Assembly (NCBI GenBank): GCA_021791455.1
Contig: JAJYWM010000352.1
Coordinates: forward strand, 1 to 7,707
Direction of reading: 5' to 3'
Length of the DNA stretch: 7,707 nucleotides
Source of the DNA: a bacterium
Lineage (GTDB): Bacteria; Chloroflexota; Dormibacteria; UBA8260; Bog-877
Under the pieces are notes generated by a model. That model saw only the letters and a program-made list of their open reading frames with translations. It ran no database searches and had not been told where the DNA came from. The position numbers and the translations under genes were made by a program. Below, one piece after another: positions 1 to 6,667 of this stretch; within the stretch, counting starts at the first letter, position 1, and every line of letters begins with the position of its first letter.

Positions 1-1832
1 CCGCGTTCCACGGCCCTGGAGTAGATCCAGGCAAGGACCGTTTCGAACCCGCCCGGCCAGAGAATTACCACCACCACCAGCGCTGTGCCGAATACGATGG
101 GGGGCCAATTCGTCAGTCCTGCTAACAGCGTCGGTAGCACGACAACGAACGCCGCGCCGGCCAATGCGCCCACGGGCCCCCAAGCCCCCCCGATAATCAC
201 CCCTGCCAGAAGCGTCACGCTCACTGACACGTCCACCGAGGTAGGGCTCACATAGCCCCCGAGGAAAGCCACCGCCGCGCCGCTGAGGCCGATGATGGCT
301 GCTCCGAGTCCCTCAACTGCCGCCATGTGGAACCCACGGCGCACCCCGCTGGCCACTGCCCGGCTCGGGTCCGCGACGAGCATGAGCGTCCGGCCGCCGA
401 CACGCCGCAGGCCGAACATAAGCGCTGCCCCGAGCCCAACGAGGAGCATGGCACCCAGTATGAGGGTCATGCCGAACAGGCTCCCAGCTGGGGGCGTCAC
501 GTACATTCCCTCGGCACCCCCAGTCCAGTGAGCCAGTACCAGCGCCAGATCGGCTACGGACGCGGTGAGGACAAGTGTGAGGGTTACGTAGTAGATGTCT
601 TCCATTCGGTGGGTGACCCAGCCCACCAGGGCCCCAACTATCCCGGCTGCCACCACGGACCCGCCCAGCGCGACTACCCACCAGACGTGGTCTCCCGTAG
701 CAATCGCGTACACGTACGAGCCCACGGCCAGGTATGCTGCCCCACCGAGGTTGACCCTCCCGGCGTAGCGCGTGATTAGGGCTAGGCCGGTAACCCCAAT
801 GGCATAAGCAACGACCAGTTCTGCAGTGTTCTGGGCTCCACCGCTAAGCAGGAGCATCGCCCCTAAGGCGATCACCAGCGCCACTACCAACTCGCCCACC
901 GCTACCCGCCGGCCAGTCCTCGCCGCCTTGTAGTGGGGGCGGATCTCAAAGGCCTTGCTGCCGAGCACGACCCTCCCCCGCCACAGCGCACCAGGGTCCA
1001 GGCGGGTGCGGACCACGAACACGATGCTGAGGAGTACCAGCAAGGCAGTGTTAGTAAGCGGTACGTCCACGTACCGAGTGATCAAGTTCGTGATCACGCC
1101 GACCACCACGGCTCCAATCAGCGTAAGGGGAATGTTTCGGAATGCCCCCCACGACGCCGCGACGGAAGCCGACAGTAGGAATGACACCTCAACAGTGGTG
1201 CTGATCTCCTGATAGGCCGCGAAAAGCACTATTGCCCACGCCGCCACCACGCCAGCAATCACCCAGATGCTGAGCCGGAGCCAGAACGTCGAGACGCCGC
1301 TCAGCAGCGTGAGCTCCGCATTGGAGGCTCCCATGCGCAGCGCCAGCCCGTACCTGGTGCCGAAGAGCAACCAGGCGAAGAGACCCAGCCCGATCGCGGC
1401 GCTCCCAATGATAACCACTCCTGCCAGGGGCAGACTGGTCCCCAATATGGTCACAGAGTCCGCGGTCGGAAACAGGTTGAATGTGTACGGGTTGTACCCA
1501 AAGAACTGGGCAAGCAGCCCGCCAGCAATCGTGCTCACGCCAAGTGTCGTGACCATGGTCGCCAACACCCCCGCCCGGCGCACCTCCAACGGCCGAATGC
1601 AGGTCAGGTACACCAAGGCGCTGGCCACCCCAGAAGCGACCAGCCCAAAGACCACTGCCAGCCAGAGAGGAACCTGCCTAGAAGCGAGGGTGATTGTGAT
1701 GAATGCTCCCACCGCTCCAACACTTCCCTGCGCGAAGTTGAAAGCACCGGATGTCCGGTAAATGAGAACCAATCCGACCACCAGGAGGGCGTACACGCTT
1801 CCTAGGATCAGCCCACCGATGAAAAGGCCCAA
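1..1832 (-). CDS. Fused LivH-LivM branched-chain amino acid type ABC permease (3' end outside window)
   Basis: Inner-membrane permease of a HAAT-family ABC importer, with both permease subunits in one polypeptide. The frame is open for 610 codons and runs off the window edge. The start is TTG at 1832: an in-frame TAG lies five codons upstream (1845-1847), and TAGGAG sits 9 bases before the TTG. Residues 1-275 are LivH-like, with GSVYALLVVGLVLIYRTSG at 11-29, FNFAQG at 31-36, and RYGLALRMGASNAELTLLSG at 160-179. A basic linker at about 276-310 joins them to a LivM-like half, with YAIGVTGLALITRYAGRVNL at 343-362, a MEDIYYVTLTLVL segment at 410-422, and GGAWGPVGALAGAAF at 548-562. Both halves are mostly hydrophobic helices. 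LivH and LivM are separate genes in the classical E. coli system; fused versions are known elsewhere. It lies 245 bp after citrate synthase on the same strand. The substrate need not be Leu/Ile/Val, because this family also imports amides, urea and aromatic compounds. A further C-terminal fusion, for example to an ATPase, cannot be excluded. Confidence 0.93.
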   Translation of the reverse strand, partial: MGLFIGGLILGSVYALLVVGLVLIYRTSGAFNFAQGSVGAVGAFITITLASRQVPLWLAVVFGLVASGVASALVYLTCIRPLEVRRAGVLATMVTTLGVSTIAGGLLAQFFGYNPYTFNLFPTADSVTILGTSLPLAGVVIIGSAAIGLGLFAWLLFGTRYGLALRMGASNAELTLLSGVSTFWLRLSIWVIAGVVAAWAIVLFAAYQEISTTVEVSFLLSASVAASWGAFRNIPLTLIGAVVVGVITNLITRYVDVPLTNTALLVLLSIVFVVRTRLDPGALWRGRVVLGSKAFEIRPHYKAARTGRRVAVGELVVALVIALGAMLLLSGGAQNTAELVVAYAIGVTGLALITRYAGRVNLGGAAYLAVGSYVYAIATGDHVWWVVALGGSVVAAGIVGALVGWVTHRMEDIYYVTLTLVLTASVADLALVLAHWTGGAEGMYVTPPAGSLFGMTLILGAMLLVGLGAALMFGLRRVGGRTLMLVADPSRAVASGVRRGFHMAAVEGLGAAIIGLSGAAVAFLGGYVSPTSVDVSVSVTLLAGVIIGGAWGPVGALAGAAFVVVLPTLLAGLTNWPPIVFGTALVVVVILWPGGFETVLAWIYSRAVER

Positions 1833-2077: not shown

Positions 2078-3364
2078 CTACTGGAGATGGCGTTCGCCGC
2101 GGCCGACATAGAGCTGCCTCGGCCGGCCGATCCTCTGCTCTGGGTCCTGAACACCTTCCACCCAATGCGCCAGCCACCCGGGCGTCCGCCCAATCGCGAA
2201 GAGCACCGGGAACATCCCGACCGGAAGGCCCATCGCCAGATAGATGATGCCAGAGTAGAAGTCGACATTCGGGTACAGCTTGTGCGAGACGAAGTATTCA
2301 TCCTCCAGGGCGATGCGTTCGATCTCCTGAGCCACTTGCAGCAGAGGACTTGGTCCCGTCACCTCGAACACTTCATCCGCGATCCGCTTGATCAGTTGCG
2401 CTCGAGGGTCGAAGTTCTTGTACACCCGGTGGCCGAAGCCCATCAGGCGGAACTCCCCGTCCTTCACCCGCTGGATGTACTCCGGGACAGCTGCTTTGGT
2501 GCCGATCCGGTTGAGCATTAGCAAGACCTGCTCATTGGCTCCGCCGTGGAGCGGGCCGTACAGCGCCGCACAGGCTCCAGACATCGCGGCATACGGGTCT
2601 GCCAGAGAGCTTCCGACCAGCCGCATGGTGCTGGTCGAGCAGTTCTGCTCATGGTCAGCATGCAGCGTCAGAAGGACGTCCAGAGCCCGCTGCAGGACGG
2701 GATGGGGCTGATTCCTGTTGGCGGTACCGCGCCAGAGCATGGTGAGGAGGTTGCCCGTGTACGTTAGAGTGGGGTCCGGGTAGACGTAGGGAAGGCCCCG
2801 GTTGTGTCGATAGATGAAGGCGGCAATCGTCGGCATCTTCGCGATGAGGCGAATGACCTGCGTCGCCCGCGATGTGGGGTCGTCGACCTGCTTGGCCTCG
2901 GGATAGAACGTGGACAGCCCAGCCACCACGGACCCCAAGACCCCCATGGGGTGCGCATCATACGGGAACGCATCGATCAACTTCCGCGCGGCCTCGTGAA
3001 CGCCTGCGTTCCGGGCAATCTCGCTGGACCAGGACGCGATCTCGTTGGGGGTCGGCAGCTCGCCGTGCAGCAGTAGGTACGCGACCTCCAAGAAGGTCTT
3101 CTTCACGGCCAGTTCCTCGATTGGGTAGCCGCGATAGCGAAGGATCCCTTTCTCTCCGTCGATGAACGTGATGGTGCTTCGACAGCTGGCGGTATTCACA
3201 AAGGCAGGGTCATAGCTGAGGAGGCCAAAATCGCACTCGCTCGCCTTGATCTGACGCAGGTCAGGCGCTCGGACCGCCCCATCCACGATCTCCAGCTCGT
3301 AAGTCCGGTTAGTGCGTCTGTCCGTAATCTCGAGTTTCGCTTCAGCATCCTCAGTTGTCGGCAC
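2078..3364 (-). CDS. gltA: Citrate synthase, type II (GltA-like)
   Basis: Condenses oxaloacetate with acetyl-CoA to give citrate, the entry step of the TCA cycle; cytoplasmic. From the chosen GTG start the protein is 428 residues, close to E. coli GltA (427). The short N-terminal beta domain typical of type II hexameric enzymes is present (AKLEITDRRTNRTYELEI), followed by DPAFVNTASC at 52-61 and FIDGEKGILRYRGYPIEEL. The catalytic triad is intact: His273 in PLHGGANEQVL, His312 in GFGHRVYKN, and Asp368 in YPNVDFYSG. The substrate-contact segments HADHEQN (235-241), GRTPGW (Arg393) and RPRQLY (Arg416) are also present. GTG at 3364 is preferred because GGGGAGGAG lies just upstream and homology begins there. 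ATG at 3400 is an alternative but has no Shine-Dalgarno. The frame stays open to an ATG at 3652, overlapping the lyase gene, but that extension is Arg/Pro-rich and looks non-coding. 2-Methylcitrate synthase is less likely because it usually lacks the N-terminal domain. The gene sits between the lyase and the permease. Confidence 0.95.
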   Translation of the reverse strand: MPTTEDAEAKLEITDRRTNRTYELEIVDGAVRAPDLRQIKASECDFGLLSYDPAFVNTASCRSTITFIDGEKGILRYRGYPIEELAVKKTFLEVAYLLLHGELPTPNEIASWSSEIARNAGVHEAARKLIDAFPYDAHPMGVLGSVVAGLSTFYPEAKQVDDPTSRATQVIRLIAKMPTIAAFIYRHNRGLPYVYPDPTLTYTGNLLTMLWRGTANRNQPHPVLQRALDVLLTLHADHEQNCSTSTMRLVGSSLADPYAAMSGACAALYGPLHGGANEQVLLMLNRIGTKAAVPEYIQRVKDGEFRLMGFGHRVYKNFDPRAQLIKRIADEVFEVTGPSPLLQVAQEIERIALEDEYFVSHKLYPNVDFYSGIIYLAMGLPVGMFPVLFAIGRTPGWLAHWVEGVQDPEQRIGRPRQLYVGRGERHLQ

Positions 3365-3563
3365 AACTCCTCCCCATTTGCCACAGGCATCCGTATCCAT
3401 CTGAAGATGGGGAGTGGGCAGCGGCAAGCCACTCCTCCGCGGACGGCCAGAACGACGCGCTCCTACCCTGTTGCGCCGTTGCACTTGACCAGCCACGCTG
3501 GTGGCGGTCCCGCACTCGATCGGCGGACCGGTGCGACCTTGGGGCGCTAGGCATGCTTTGCTC
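3365..3563. other. Spacer between lyase and citrate synthase genes
   Basis: About 200 bp between the lyase stop (3564-3566) and the preferred citrate synthase start. It carries the Shine-Dalgarno GGGGAGGAG and a weak imperfect hairpin near 3412-3432 (AGTGG paired with CCACT around an 11-base loop). The two flanking genes could share a transcript. A 67-codon minus-strand frame (3351-3554) has no recognisable product. Confidence 0.4.
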
Positions 3564-5054
3564 CTAGCCCGCTGCAAGCTGCGCCAGACCGTTGGCGAGC
3601 TCGGCCGCCGCTCGCTCATCATCGGCAAGGGCTGTCTCAACGAGCGCGGCATCCCTTTCCAGGGCTGAACGAGCCGCCTCTAGTTGCTCTCTGGTGCGGG
3701 CCGTGGAGGTTCCACCCCTTAGGGCGTGGGAGGCGACGACTGCGGGCACTCTGGTCCTGGCCTCGAGGGCGGCAACATCGCTCCCCTTGCCACTGTGGAG
3801 CAGCGGCTGCAGGCGAGCTGACAGGGCCGATAGGTCATGGGTGTCCAGAACCTGTCCAGCGCGACCCTGACCTTCTCGGTCGCGCTGGAACTCTGCGATG
3901 GCCCCGTGCGCGTCGCGGTAGGGCACCCCTCGCTCTCCGATGAGCCAAGCCAGTACGCCACCTACGACCGCGCTTGAGCTGTCGGCCGCGCGCCTGAGGC
4001 GGGCCTCGTCCACTTCGAGGTGGACCATCAGCTCCCTCAGCACCCGAAGGGCCCGGTCAGCTTCGTGGGACTGTCTAAGCACTTGCAGCGGCAACAGGGT
4101 CGCAGCTTCCAACTGCTCCGACGGCGCTTTTACGGCGCTAAGGCCTTCCATCAACCCGCCAGCGCCAACCGCTGCCAAGCCGCAGAGGAACTCTAGTACG
4201 TAGGGTATCCGCATGTGTGGTGCAACGCTAGACGTGATGCTGAGCTGCCCCGGTATCCGTACAAAACCAAACTCGCTGGTGCTCCAGACGAGCAGGTCCG
4301 TTGCGAGCCGGGCGAGGGTGGTGTCCAGAATCGCCAGCCCGGCTAGGGTCTGAATCAAGTAGTCGTAGTTGCGAATCCCGTCGCGCGCGTTCAGGCATGG
4401 ACGGGGGAAGCCGAGCAACTGGTCGAGCTGCTCAAGTGCCACGTGGTACGGGGTCCCAAAGCCCCCGTCGGACCCGACCACGCTGACATTCACCACTTGG
4501 TATGAGTCGTACAGGCGCTGAGCATCGCGTTCCAGCGCCGCGCCCCAAGAGAGCAGGTAGTACCCCAGGGTGGTGAGGTCGATATGTTGGAGGTAGCTGT
4601 ACCCCGGCATGTAAGTCTCGAGGTGGTCGGCTGCTAGGGCCAAGACGGCCCGCCTCACTTCAACGAGCGCGATCTGGACGCCCAGGATTCGCCTGCGCGC
4701 CGAGAGGCGGCTCGCCACTGCCCGGATCGACGGGCTGGACCGCCCCAGGTGGAGGAGGCTAGCGCTCTCTGGGCCACAGACTTGTCGCAGGAACTCCTCC
4801 CCGCCGTGGATAACATTGCTCAACTGCAGGCGCGCTTCAACAACTCCCTCCTCCTCCATCTGGCGCAAGGCTCGCGCCAGGCGTTGCAGGGTGGGTCCAG
4901 GAGCGAGGTCAGCGCGCGCGAGCATGACCAGCTGGGCCCGGTCATAGTCATGGACCGCGCGCAGAAAGTCGGGCTCCTTCATGATCTCCGCGTAGTAGTG
5001 CATGAGGTCCGAGCTTGCCGAAGCACCCAATCGCTGAGTCCAGAAGAAGCTCAC
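3564..5054 (-). CDS. Divergent argininosuccinate lyase-like protein (fumarase/aspartase superfamily)
   Basis: The superfamily removes an amine or similar group from a succinyl substrate by beta-elimination, usually releasing fumarate. From GTG 5054 the protein is 496 residues and aligns by eye with argininosuccinate lyase (ASL) from end to end. Matches are an N-terminal WTQRLG (cf. LWGGRF), LHLGRS at 101-106 (cf. HTGRSRNDQ), MPGYSYLQ at 149-156 (cf. MPGYTHLQ), VNVS, the DLLVWSTSEFGFV helix, TSSVAPHMRIPYVLE at 274-288 (cf. GSSxMPQKKNPDxxE), GVPYRDAH at 376-383, and GGTSTARTREQLEAA near the C-terminus, plus about 30 extra helical residues. Key ASL residues are changed: the GYTH histidine is Tyr154, the first signature lysine is Met281, and the signature asparagine is Ile283. 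The RNDQ after GRS is SPSI. The loop serine (275) and Glu288 remain. The frame has no lesions, so decay is unlikely; an altered lyase or a pseudoenzyme fits better. GTG 5054 has GAGAGGA 9 bases upstream; ATG 5078 is possible, but its GGAGG is only one base away. Confidence 0.88.
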   Translation of the reverse strand: MSFFWTQRLGASASSDLMHYYAEIMKEPDFLRAVHDYDRAQLVMLARADLAPGPTLQRLARALRQMEEEGVVEARLQLSNVIHGGEEFLRQVCGPESASLLHLGRSSPSIRAVASRLSARRRILGVQIALVEVRRAVLALAADHLETYMPGYSYLQHIDLTTLGYYLLSWGAALERDAQRLYDSYQVVNVSVVGSDGGFGTPYHVALEQLDQLLGFPRPCLNARDGIRNYDYLIQTLAGLAILDTTLARLATDLLVWSTSEFGFVRIPGQLSITSSVAPHMRIPYVLEFLCGLAAVGAGGLMEGLSAVKAPSEQLEAATLLPLQVLRQSHEADRALRVLRELMVHLEVDEARLRRAADSSSAVVGGVLAWLIGERGVPYRDAHGAIAEFQRDREGQGRAGQVLDTHDLSALSARLQPLLHSGKGSDVAALEARTRVPAVVASHALRGGTSTARTREQLEAARSALERDAALVETALADDERAAAELANGLAQLAAG

Positions 5055-5235
5055 GGATGTGCTTCCTCTCGGATCCATTCCTCCCCCGTGCCCCAGTTAT
5101 AGACGCATCGGGTACAGCTGGTGCTGCGTGGATAGGTACCGTGCAGTCGGAGATCCGTCACCGCTGCACCGCCCTGGTAGGGCATCCCGGATACACGTCG
5201 CAATCTAATGCCTCGCAAACAACCTGGGAGAGGAA
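5055..5235 (-). promoter_or_regulatory. Upstream region of the lyase gene with possible leader hairpin
   Basis: On the minus strand, between the terminator-like hairpin and the lyase start, GTGCAG (5164-5169) can pair with CTGCAC (5141-5146). A small inner stem, CGG/CCG, lies within the enclosed segment, so the transcript could fold into a stem-loop. A TATAAC (5096-5101) could act as a -10 element, but no good -35 lies at 17-18 bases. The lyase, citrate synthase and permease may therefore have their own weak promoter here, or depend on read-through from the binding-protein gene. Confidence 0.25.
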
Positions 5236-5308: not shown

Positions 5309-6559
5309 TCACTGAGCAAGCGAGACCGGCAAACGGGGAACCGGAAGTGGCCCGTAGACGTGTGGTGTCGTCTGGGTTGAAGGATCGTACCTGTACATAT
5401 TCTCGGTTGCCGTGGGAATGACGTTCGATGCGGAGAACGTCAGCGTCGCTCCGAGATTTCCTGGTTCGAAGGCTGGGCCCGTTTCGAGAGCCTTTATCAA
5501 CGAGGCCCGAGTCGGGGTCTTGCCACCCTTTGTGGCCAGCTGCAGGGCGTGGATGAACACGCCCATCCCAATCCACCCCAGGGCGGCCTGAGCGCTGGGG
5601 TTCTGGTCGGAGGTGTACTGCCGCACGATGCTGATCATTGACGACACGCCTGGGTTCGAGGTGTCGGTGATGGGCGTGAACCAAGAGTCGAAGTAAATGG
5701 TGTCACCGAGCGCCGAGACCGGCTGGAAGACGGCGGGCACCGCGTTGTAGAAGGGAAGGACCACGGTCGGGTGGTAACCGATGGCCGCGCACGCCTTCAG
5801 GAGCGCGATCACGTTCGGCGGCTCACCAAAGTCGAGCAGGTACGGGGCGTTGGCGCTGGCCAGAGTCGCGGCGTAGCCGGAGAAGTCCGTGGCGTTCGGG
5901 TTGTAGCCCAGGTTGGCCGCGAGGGTGAGGTGTAGCTTGGAGACCTCGTACGGGACTCCGGGCGCGGCGCCTTCGCCCGGAGCGTCCTGGGTGTACGCGA
6001 GCGAGATTTTGGTGGCGTGGAGCACGTTGGCAAGGAACTCGACTTGGAATGCCGTGATCTCGTCAAATGGAACCTGGTACCCAAAGAAGAGCCCCTCAGG
6101 GGTGGTGATCCCCTGGTGGGCAAGCACGCCGGTGTCCATTGAGAATCCAATGTCTGGCACCTTGGCTTGCTTGAGGATCGGAACATCGGCGGCGTTGGTA
6201 GGCGTTCCGACCAAAGCGGCGACGGCGAAGATGTTGCTCGCCAGAAGTTGGTGGAGGTCAGAAACCGCGAGCGACGGCTGATACTGGTCGTCCAAGACCG
6301 TGTAGTGGAGCTTCCACCCGTTGACGCCGCCGTGGGCATTGACGTAGTCGACGTACGCCTGAGCGGCGACCGAACCCTCTCCGAAGAGGGAGTAGGCTCC
6401 CGTCTTGGCAGCGCTTGCCCCGATGTCGATCGTATGGGTCTTGGTATTGACACCCGGCGACGCCCCGGACCCGGACGTTGCCGACTGCCCACAGGCAGTC
6501 AGGGCCACGGCGCATGCACACAGCAGGCCGGTTGCCCACCCTAGCTTAGAGCGGAGCAT
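5309..6559 (-). CDS. Branched-chain amino acid type ABC transporter substrate-binding lipoprotein
   Basis: Extracytoplasmic ligand-binding component (Peripla_BP_6/LivK-like, type 1 periplasmic-binding fold) that captures substrate for the importer whose fused permease is encoded downstream. The 416-residue precursor starts at ATG 6559, chosen because GGAGGG lies 8 bases upstream and a lipoprotein signal peptide follows at once: basic RSK, a hydrophobic core, and lipobox LTAC with Cys23 as the lipidation site. A Ser/Gly-rich linker precedes the domain. Family features are IDIGASAAKTG (44-54), AQAYVDYVNAHGGVNGWKL (66-84), DDQYQPSLAV (90-99), and VGTPTNAADVPIL (117-129). The C-terminal part, with GWIGMGVFIHALQLA and TRASLIKAL, is typical of lobe 2 and the closing helix. 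The frame extends 30 codons further upstream to ATG 6649, but those residues would bury the signal peptide. The substrate cannot be read from sequence; the adjacent lyase and citrate synthase hint at a nitrogenous or carboxylic acid rather than plain Leu/Ile/Val. Confidence 0.93.
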   Translation of the reverse strand: MLRSKLGWATGLLCACAVALTACGQSATSGSGASPGVNTKTHTIDIGASAAKTGAYSLFGEGSVAAQAYVDYVNAHGGVNGWKLHYTVLDDQYQPSLAVSDLHQLLASNIFAVAALVGTPTNAADVPILKQAKVPDIGFSMDTGVLAHQGITTPEGLFFGYQVPFDEITAFQVEFLANVLHATKISLAYTQDAPGEGAAPGVPYEVSKLHLTLAANLGYNPNATDFSGYAATLASANAPYLLDFGEPPNVIALLKACAAIGYHPTVVLPFYNAVPAVFQPVSALGDTIYFDSWFTPITDTSNPGVSSMISIVRQYTSDQNPSAQAALGWIGMGVFIHALQLATKGGKTPTRASLIKALETGPAFEPGNLGATLTFSASNVIPTATENMYRYDPSTQTTPHVYGPLPVPRLPVSLAQ

Positions 6560-6667
6560 GTCGGGTTCCCTCCATTCACGTCTGATAGACACAACCGGCA
6601 CGACCGGCATATGGCAATGGGCACGATGGTGTCTCACGCCGTGATACATGCGTTGTCAAACATGCAG

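Follow-up and report, generated by a model that had tools for sequence, protein, structure and literature searches.

A conserved branch of argininosuccinate lyase-like proteins with an altered alpha-carboxylate pocket

Analysis of a 7,707-nucleotide stretch of DNA (hereafter the window) identified a gene whose product, judging from sequence comparison, belongs to a real, conserved and unnamed branch of argininosuccinate lyase (ASL)-like lyases with an altered alpha-carboxylate pocket. What sets the predicted active site apart is that both alpha-carboxylate ligands of the SS-loop are lost while both serines of this loop are kept. The best explanation, which we put forward tentatively and at somewhat less than even confidence, is that these proteins are active, homotetrameric lyases of the aspartase/fumarase superfamily that would act on 3-substituted monocarboxylates and would not be ASL.

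The ASL-like gene and its active-site motifs

All four genes of the window with family matches are located on the minus strand (Table 1). The homology of the ASL-like product to ASL covers most of the protein length. With the GTG start, which is common to most of the relatives that were fetched, the protein begins with (M)SFFW, and an alternative ATG start at position 5078 yields a 504-residue form, to which the residue numbers refer throughout.

Table 1. Features of the window and of the related plasmid locus
Feature	Position	Strand	Remarks
ASL-like lyase gene	3564..5054	-	496 aa; GTG start 5054, TAG stop 3564
C1 motif HLGRSSPSI (from H110)	4725..4751	-	ASL counterpart HTGRSRNDQ
C2 motif GYSYLQ (from G159)	4587..4604	-	ASL counterpart GYTHLQ; Tyr162 for His, codon 4593-4595
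C3/SS-loop motif TSSVAPHMRIP (from T282)	4203..4235	-	ASL counterpart GSSxMPQKKNP; codons of Ser283 4230-4232, Met289 4212-4214, Ile291 4206-4208
Branched-chain-amino-acid-type ABC transporter substrate-binding protein	5309..6649	-	upstream; Peripla_BP_6, 150 bits
Citrate synthase	2078..3400 (3400 approximate)	-	downstream; NCBIfam PRK05614, 561 bits, above cut-off
Fused LivH-LivM-type ABC transporter permease	3..1832	-	open at the end of the window
Sister-clade gene E5P2_RS35785, Variovorax sp. SRS16 plasmid	L146 5953-7461		annotated argH

The initial annotation held that the ASL signature was replaced in an intact frame, and all three altered motifs were confirmed on the minus strand. The ASL residues Lys289, Asn291, His162, Arg115 and Asn116 are Met, Ile, Tyr, Ser and Pro, respectively, in the window protein, and the ASL Tyr323 loop is replaced as well; canonical catalytic residues at shifted positions, which would have explained these differences away, were not found in the alignment. 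Within the SS-loop, Ser283, the putative general base, and Ser284 are kept, and Met286 is replaced by Ala in addition to the Lys and Asn replacements. When aligned to Escherichia coli aspartase, Met289, Ile291 and Ala286 correspond to Lys327, Asn329 and Met324, and Ser114, Ser115 and Pro116 to Ser143-Thr144-Asn145. The superfamily consensus for this loop is given as GSSxxPxKxN in the available text of a recent paper (PMC13411527); the window loop has both serines and the proline and lacks the Lys and Asn, and the protein is placed in the aspartase/fumarase superfamily, with a variant of this loop, because of its fold and descent. The replacement of the C2 His, one of the differences listed in the initial annotation, is not unique: this position is Gln in ethylenediamine-disuccinate (EDDS) lyase (YTQRK) and E. 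coli aspartase (GRTQLQ), Tyr in XcbC-type proteins (TYLQP), and Leu in CreD (PMC13411527, available text).

Within the Liv-type transporter locus, the citrate synthase gene lies between those for the binding protein and the permease. The nearest relatives of its product that carry an organism name are mostly from Candidatus Dormibacteria, at about 73%, which points to a host that is probably akin to this group. No match to the window LivK, LivHM or lyase was found at any of 10 Dormibacteria citrate synthase loci (flanks of approximately 1.5 kb, contig permitting); the arrangement is thus not the usual one at these loci, and citrate synthase was rejected as a partner of the lyase. Second among the matches listed for the window citrate synthase is a protein of 753 residues with a citrate synthase domain (P0036; 939 bits, 55% identity), possibly a fusion or duplication. 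Rfam and tRNA scans of the window gave no matches, nor did a Pfam scan of three further upstream open frames.

Conservation of the family

The protein search (7,996 candidates scored) retrieved at least 34 proteins, 29 of which are members of the family (P0001-P0029), and a search of the same depth with an alignment as the query reproduced the set obtained with the single sequence. Among the matches listed, identity to the window protein is 98% for P0001, 85% for P0002 and 39-50% for the other family members. In the genome survey, members scoring 842-976 bits were detected in 12 of the 74 genomes of the taxonomic family of G001, which was reached via a Burkholderiales MAG (carriers G439, G373, G441, G429, G376, G401, G404, G430, G438, G400, G417 and G377). 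No member was detected at E 1e-120 in 369 genomes of the class of G001, a weak negative result with at most four candidates scored per genome (20 rows listed) and carriers possibly left undrawn. In the phylum of G443, 5 of 400 genomes yielded matches at E 1e-75, all at 349 bits or less and outside the family clade, and the 110 genomes of the class of G443, that of a Dormibacterota MAG, contained no family member.

The residue counts compare 40 distinct family sequences with 120 distinct outside sequences drawn from all 151 loci (L001-L151) and the protein search. In the family, Ser114, Ser115, Ser283 and Ser284 are each present in 40/40 sequences; Met289, Ile291, Tyr162, Pro116 and Glu296 are each present in 39, the exceptions being Lys, Val, Phe, Ala and Gly, respectively; and position 286 is Ser, Ala or Cys (33/6/1). 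Outside the family, Lys289 and Ser283 are invariant (120 each), followed by Asn291 (119; Thr in one), Ser284 (118; Val in two), Met286 (117) and His162 (116; two Phe, two Tyr). The sole exception at position 291 is a verrucomicrobial ASL (L045, match near 1149-2240) with the loop MPQKKTPD. L096, the single family sequence with Lys289, branches from inside the family and retains Ile291; because of this nested position, its Lys most likely was regained by reversion.

The active-site stretches are better conserved than the rest of the protein (0.92 vs 0.71 in 20 non-redundant family sequences). Moreover, some residues that are invariant in the family are absent from ASL, several of them being arginines; in the column analysis, Arg119, Arg232 and Arg236 show conservation in the family that they do not show in ASL. 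Replaced ASL-conserved columns are not enriched in the active-site stretches (22/36 vs 30/58 elsewhere, Fisher p 0.40). For 12 members, dN/dS ranges from 0.026 to 0.319, with a median of 0.09 (63 of 66 pairs, three giving no value; dS is saturated in many), and is 0.026-0.049 for the eight pairs with the lowest dN. The frame is accordingly intact and not decaying, and a sequencing error or pseudogene, for which close homologs with a normal signature would have spoken, is ruled out by the change of the Lys in 39/40 distinct family sequences, all 39 of them with Met289, together with the low dN/dS. The alignment (A2) comprises the window protein and P0001-P0026, without P0027-P0029; P0027 and P0033, with fewer than 350 aligned residues, are included in the residue counts and left out of the column analysis and the tree.

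Phylogenetic position and comparison with characterized relatives

In the tree of 57 chosen sequences, the family forms one clade of 20 sequences with 100/100 support, so that the phylogeny called for by the initial annotation does reveal a separate clade. The sister group (support 96/85) consists of ASL-like proteins with an HSGE- or HFGE-type motif (the Variovorax plasmid protein, P0030, L081 and L142). Like the family, these proteins have Ser115 and have lost Asn116; unlike the family, they keep Lys289 and Asn291. Because the sister sequences checked (Variovorax, P0030 and L081) have Ser115 and Gly116 yet keep Lys289 and Asn291, remodelling of the leaving-group side seems to have preceded that of the alpha-carboxylate pocket, an order inferred from one tree. 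Our searches found no described function for the sister-clade proteins. The Variovorax gene lies in a cluster with an amino-acid ABC transporter, agmatinase, Asp/Glu racemase, TctC, MmgE/PrpD and TcuA, and it probably encodes a catabolic lyase and not ArgH; TctC, MmgE/PrpD and TcuA are also the features in which its surroundings resemble those of the family genes. An uncharacterized variant of the SS-loop, SSIMMQKKN, was observed in the ASL-like paralogs L003 (9896-11416), L081 and L142; in L003 and L081, the C2 His is also replaced by Phe.

The window protein matches PF00206 (Lyase_1) at 79 bits (cut-off 27), and Foldseek and VIA searches recover the fold of the superfamily, whose enzymes are homotetramers in which three subunits contribute to each active site. 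The match to the NCBIfam argH model (TIGR00838) is 175.6 bits, below the cut-off of 279.5, as are those of P0012 (244.6) and the L096 gene (scored as L108; 251.6). ASL, including the delta-crystallins, differs from the family in having Lys289, Asn291, His162, Arg115 and Asn116 and falls into a separate clade. The expectation that most pipelines would label such proteins ASL is borne out in part: JGI names 7 of the 29 family proteins argininosuccinate lyase, and, against it, the NCBIfam argH cut-off is missed and NCBI names one protein "hypothetical protein".

The closest solved structure to the family profile is EDDS lyase (E 1.4e-61 for the mutant, 4.3e-61 for the native enzyme), which is also closest in Foldseek (22% identity in the structure match, with a monomer model) and works between fumarate and amines, according to the available text of PMC12363623. 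Like the family, EDDS lyase of Chelativorans sp. BNC1 (6g3d) lacks the C2 His; unlike the family, it keeps the GTSSIMPQKKNPD loop (SSIMPQKKNPD), with Asn288 and Asp290 against Ile291 and Tyr293 of the non-canonical family loop. The XcbC-type lyases of coenzyme M synthesis resemble the family in the Tyr at the C2 His position and the Tyr after the loop Pro, and differ in that Lys and Asn are kept, the second loop Ser is Val, and they fall on a separate branch. XcbC-type proteins and EDDS lyase both lie elsewhere in the tree, on long branches whose placement is unsure. To go by the title of the paper that describes it, XcbC is a functionally distinct, phosphate-eliminating ASL relative; the description of the model NF052535 reads "phosphatase", at variance with the title of the paper it cites. 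Two plasmid XcbC-type proteins encoded in coenzyme M clusters (L147 5124-6449 and L149 3917-5464) score 332 and 399 bits with this model, both below its cut-off of 575, which makes the cut-off alone a weak test; the window protein scores 156.7 bits, lower than its argH score.

Genomic context

A separate canonical argH gene is present in most of the carriers, as the check proposed with the initial annotation established: a strong ArgH match (622-645 bits) was found in 9 of the 12 genomes. Although 11 of the 12 contain a match above the argH cut-off, G400 and G377 were not counted, their matches (378 and 375 bits) being to a different ASL-like type that carries RSRID and SSSIMPQKKNPY; besides its family gene and a protein of a further ASL-like type, G430 shows only a C-terminal ArgH fragment (177 bits). 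In G400, G377 and G417 (L118, L119 and L122), ASL-like proteins with HxGRSRIDLIA and SSSIMPQKKNPYS form a clade of their own and score above the argH cut-off (348-378 bits), and the NCBIfam argH annotation may be too generous for proteins of this type.

Neighboring genes were called with a simple script and not with an annotation pipeline. The regions around the family genes are rich in genes for Bug/TctC-type binding proteins (neighbors confirmed in L099 and L107, others identified by BLAST clustering). This adjacency was rejected as functional evidence because the genome-wide expansion makes such proximity nearly expected: first-look TctC-type candidates number 307-996 in each of the 12 carriers, of which 97 per genome were scored. 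MmgE/PrpD is the nearest predicted neighbor at 5 of 12 loci (L101, L103 and L104 by Pfam, L102 and L105 by BLAST cluster) and lies within two genes at a sixth, L106. This family is itself unusually expanded, with 42-99 matches per carrier genome and 888 in 65.6 Mb; by our own estimate, at roughly one gene per kb, about 0.3 loci would be expected against the 5 observed. Some of the loci are close relatives, and we regard the adjacency as a lead only. Other neighbors include TcuA-type dehydrogenases at two loci (L101 and L107), a gamma-glutamyltranspeptidase at L105 with a BLAST cluster-mate at L104, and FAD oxidoreductases of the amine-oxidase type at L098. At the latter locus (5078-9924), a flavin oxidoreductase, a ThiO-like FAD oxidase and a protein with Pyr_redox, SO_alpha_A3 and Fer2_BFD domains are encoded next to the family gene, a pair of oxidoreductases among them presumably resembling the subunits of opine or amine oxidases. 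Taken together, the gene content is variable and singles out no substrate; its common theme is the import and degradation of organic acids or nitrogen compounds.

Predicted reaction and alternatives

In AspB, as described in the available text of PMC11744663, the alpha-carboxylate pocket is formed by Thr187, Met321, Lys324 and Asn326, and the mechanism is expected to require the beta-carboxylate alone; hydrophobic variants, e.g., T187I/M321I/K324M/N326C, convert acrylate to beta-alanine, and crotonate is accepted by an aspartase variant with K324M, cited there, that was obtained by directed evolution. The family resembles the engineered AspB variants (8rj0 and 8rj1) in its non-polar alpha-carboxylate pocket, the change of Lys to Met and the presence of both loop serines. 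Unlike the family, the variants are man-made and derive from an aspartase parent of low identity to it, and the amine-contacting His188 and Asn142 are unvaried in them, whereas the equivalents differ in the family. The family profile scores higher with mutant AspB (8rj0, 35.3 bits) than with aspartase (1j3u, 30.9 bits), the gap of 4.4 bits being small.

A non-polar pocket together with both loop serines, the combination found here, is what would be expected of a lyase of 3-substituted monocarboxylates. In the proposed mechanism, Ser283 would take the proton from the carbon adjoining the carboxylate, which would be held by the hydroxyls of Ser114, Ser115 and Ser284, and the substituent on the next carbon would leave. 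The second (alpha) carboxylate site of ASL, aspartase and fumarase, with Lys289 and Asn291, is now a hydrophobic site lined by Met289, Ile291, Ser/Ala/Cys286 and Tyr162, and it is because of this site that the substrate would be a 3-substituted monocarboxylate, R-CHX-CH2-COO-, converted to a 2-enoate and HX, or formed in the reverse addition, without release of fumarate. A putative product other than fumarate appears most likely, and ammonia is an unlikely leaving group because the Tyr162 and Pro116 positions differ. The enzyme might serve in the uptake and breakdown of such a compound, beside carboxylate or amino-acid-type transport genes. That nature arrived at the pocket designed by engineers, in a branch acting on acrylate-, crotonate- or larger 2-enoate-type monocarboxylates and not on fumarate, so that the enzyme would be a natural beta-amino-acid-type or C-S/C-O lyase, is a conceivable specific form of this proposal that we hold with low confidence. 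In the literature searched (titles and the starts of abstracts, with few subscription journals), we found neither a natural ASL-like acrylate-forming lyase or natural aspartase of the K324M type nor a report on ASL together with MmgE or tripartite tricarboxylate genes.

Several observations count against the best explanation, namely Lys289 in L096, Thr291 in L045 outside the family and the null result of the column-enrichment test. In CreD (PMC13411527, available text), the alpha-carboxylate is bound by Lys308 and Asn310, both indispensable with fumarate, and the other carboxylate by the second loop Ser, Thr122 and Ser123; monoacids are not accepted, and the Lys is proposed to act in catalysis. 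K308A, like N310A, loses activity on fumarate, so that this Lys can matter for catalysis. Arg119, Arg232 and Arg236 could also accommodate some other anion at the same site.

These arginines also figure in the alternative that survives best, which we consider rather unlikely: an active superfamily enzyme of other chemistry, i.e., an isomerase, cycloisomerase or decarboxylase of the CMLE or trans-aconitate decarboxylase (Tad1) type, or, in another form of the same alternative, an elimination in which a second acid group of the substrate is bound by the three arginines. CMLE and Tad1, both of which give weak matches, demonstrate that the fold supports such reactions, and the family-specific invariant residues and the proximity of MmgE/PrpD fit this possibility. 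ASL and EDDS lyase, however, match far better, and both SS-loop serines are invariant; the absence of CMLE and Tad1 from the best 50 VIA-align rows carries no weight.

A C-N lyase that releases fumarate from an N-substituted aspartate, close to EDDS lyase and with the carboxylate bound differently, is distinctly improbable. The closeness of EDDS lyase, itself devoid of the C2 His, and the canonical Lys and Asn of the sister clade are compatible with it, but EDDS lyase keeps the loop of which the family has lost the Lys in 39/40 and the Asn in 40/40 sequences, and, in the available text of PMC13411527, single changes of either residue abolish the activity of CreD on fumarate.

Very doubtful, too, is an XcbC-like lyase that would act on a phosphorylated or sulfonated acid and eliminate phosphate or some other oxyanion. 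The XcbC-type proteins of the two coenzyme M clusters share the Tyr pair (TYLQP, PQKRNPY), and the window protein does match the XcbC model; this match is, however, far below the cut-off and lower than that to argH, the retention of Lys and Asn with Val for the second Ser is the reverse of the family pattern, the two groups are separated in the tree, although the XcbC-type branch is long, and no coenzyme M genes were found among the part of the neighbors that was scanned or clustered.

Duck delta-1 crystallin is reportedly a precedent for a catalytically dead ASL-type protein, and several catalytic or binding residues are lost here, but a dead scaffold or regulatory protein, the second option of the initial annotation, is unlikely and disfavored by the invariance of the general-base Ser and its neighbor and by the better conservation of the active-site stretches. 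Its other suggestion, a lyase with a new substrate, is supported: the proteins are not ASL, form a distinct clade under purifying selection and most likely act on a new substrate.

Implications

The electrophile selectivity of the superfamily is described as remarkably strict in the available text of a 2026 paper (PMC13411527), with synthetic use largely confined to fumarate; the rare cases of a broader selectivity took extensive engineering. A natural family in which both second-carboxylate ligands of the loop are replaced makes the question of selectivity directly testable. If active, these proteins would offer biocatalysts for beta-amino acids and related compounds, would allow one to ask whether the conserved Lys serves binding alone, and would be a warning against the argH label for such genes.
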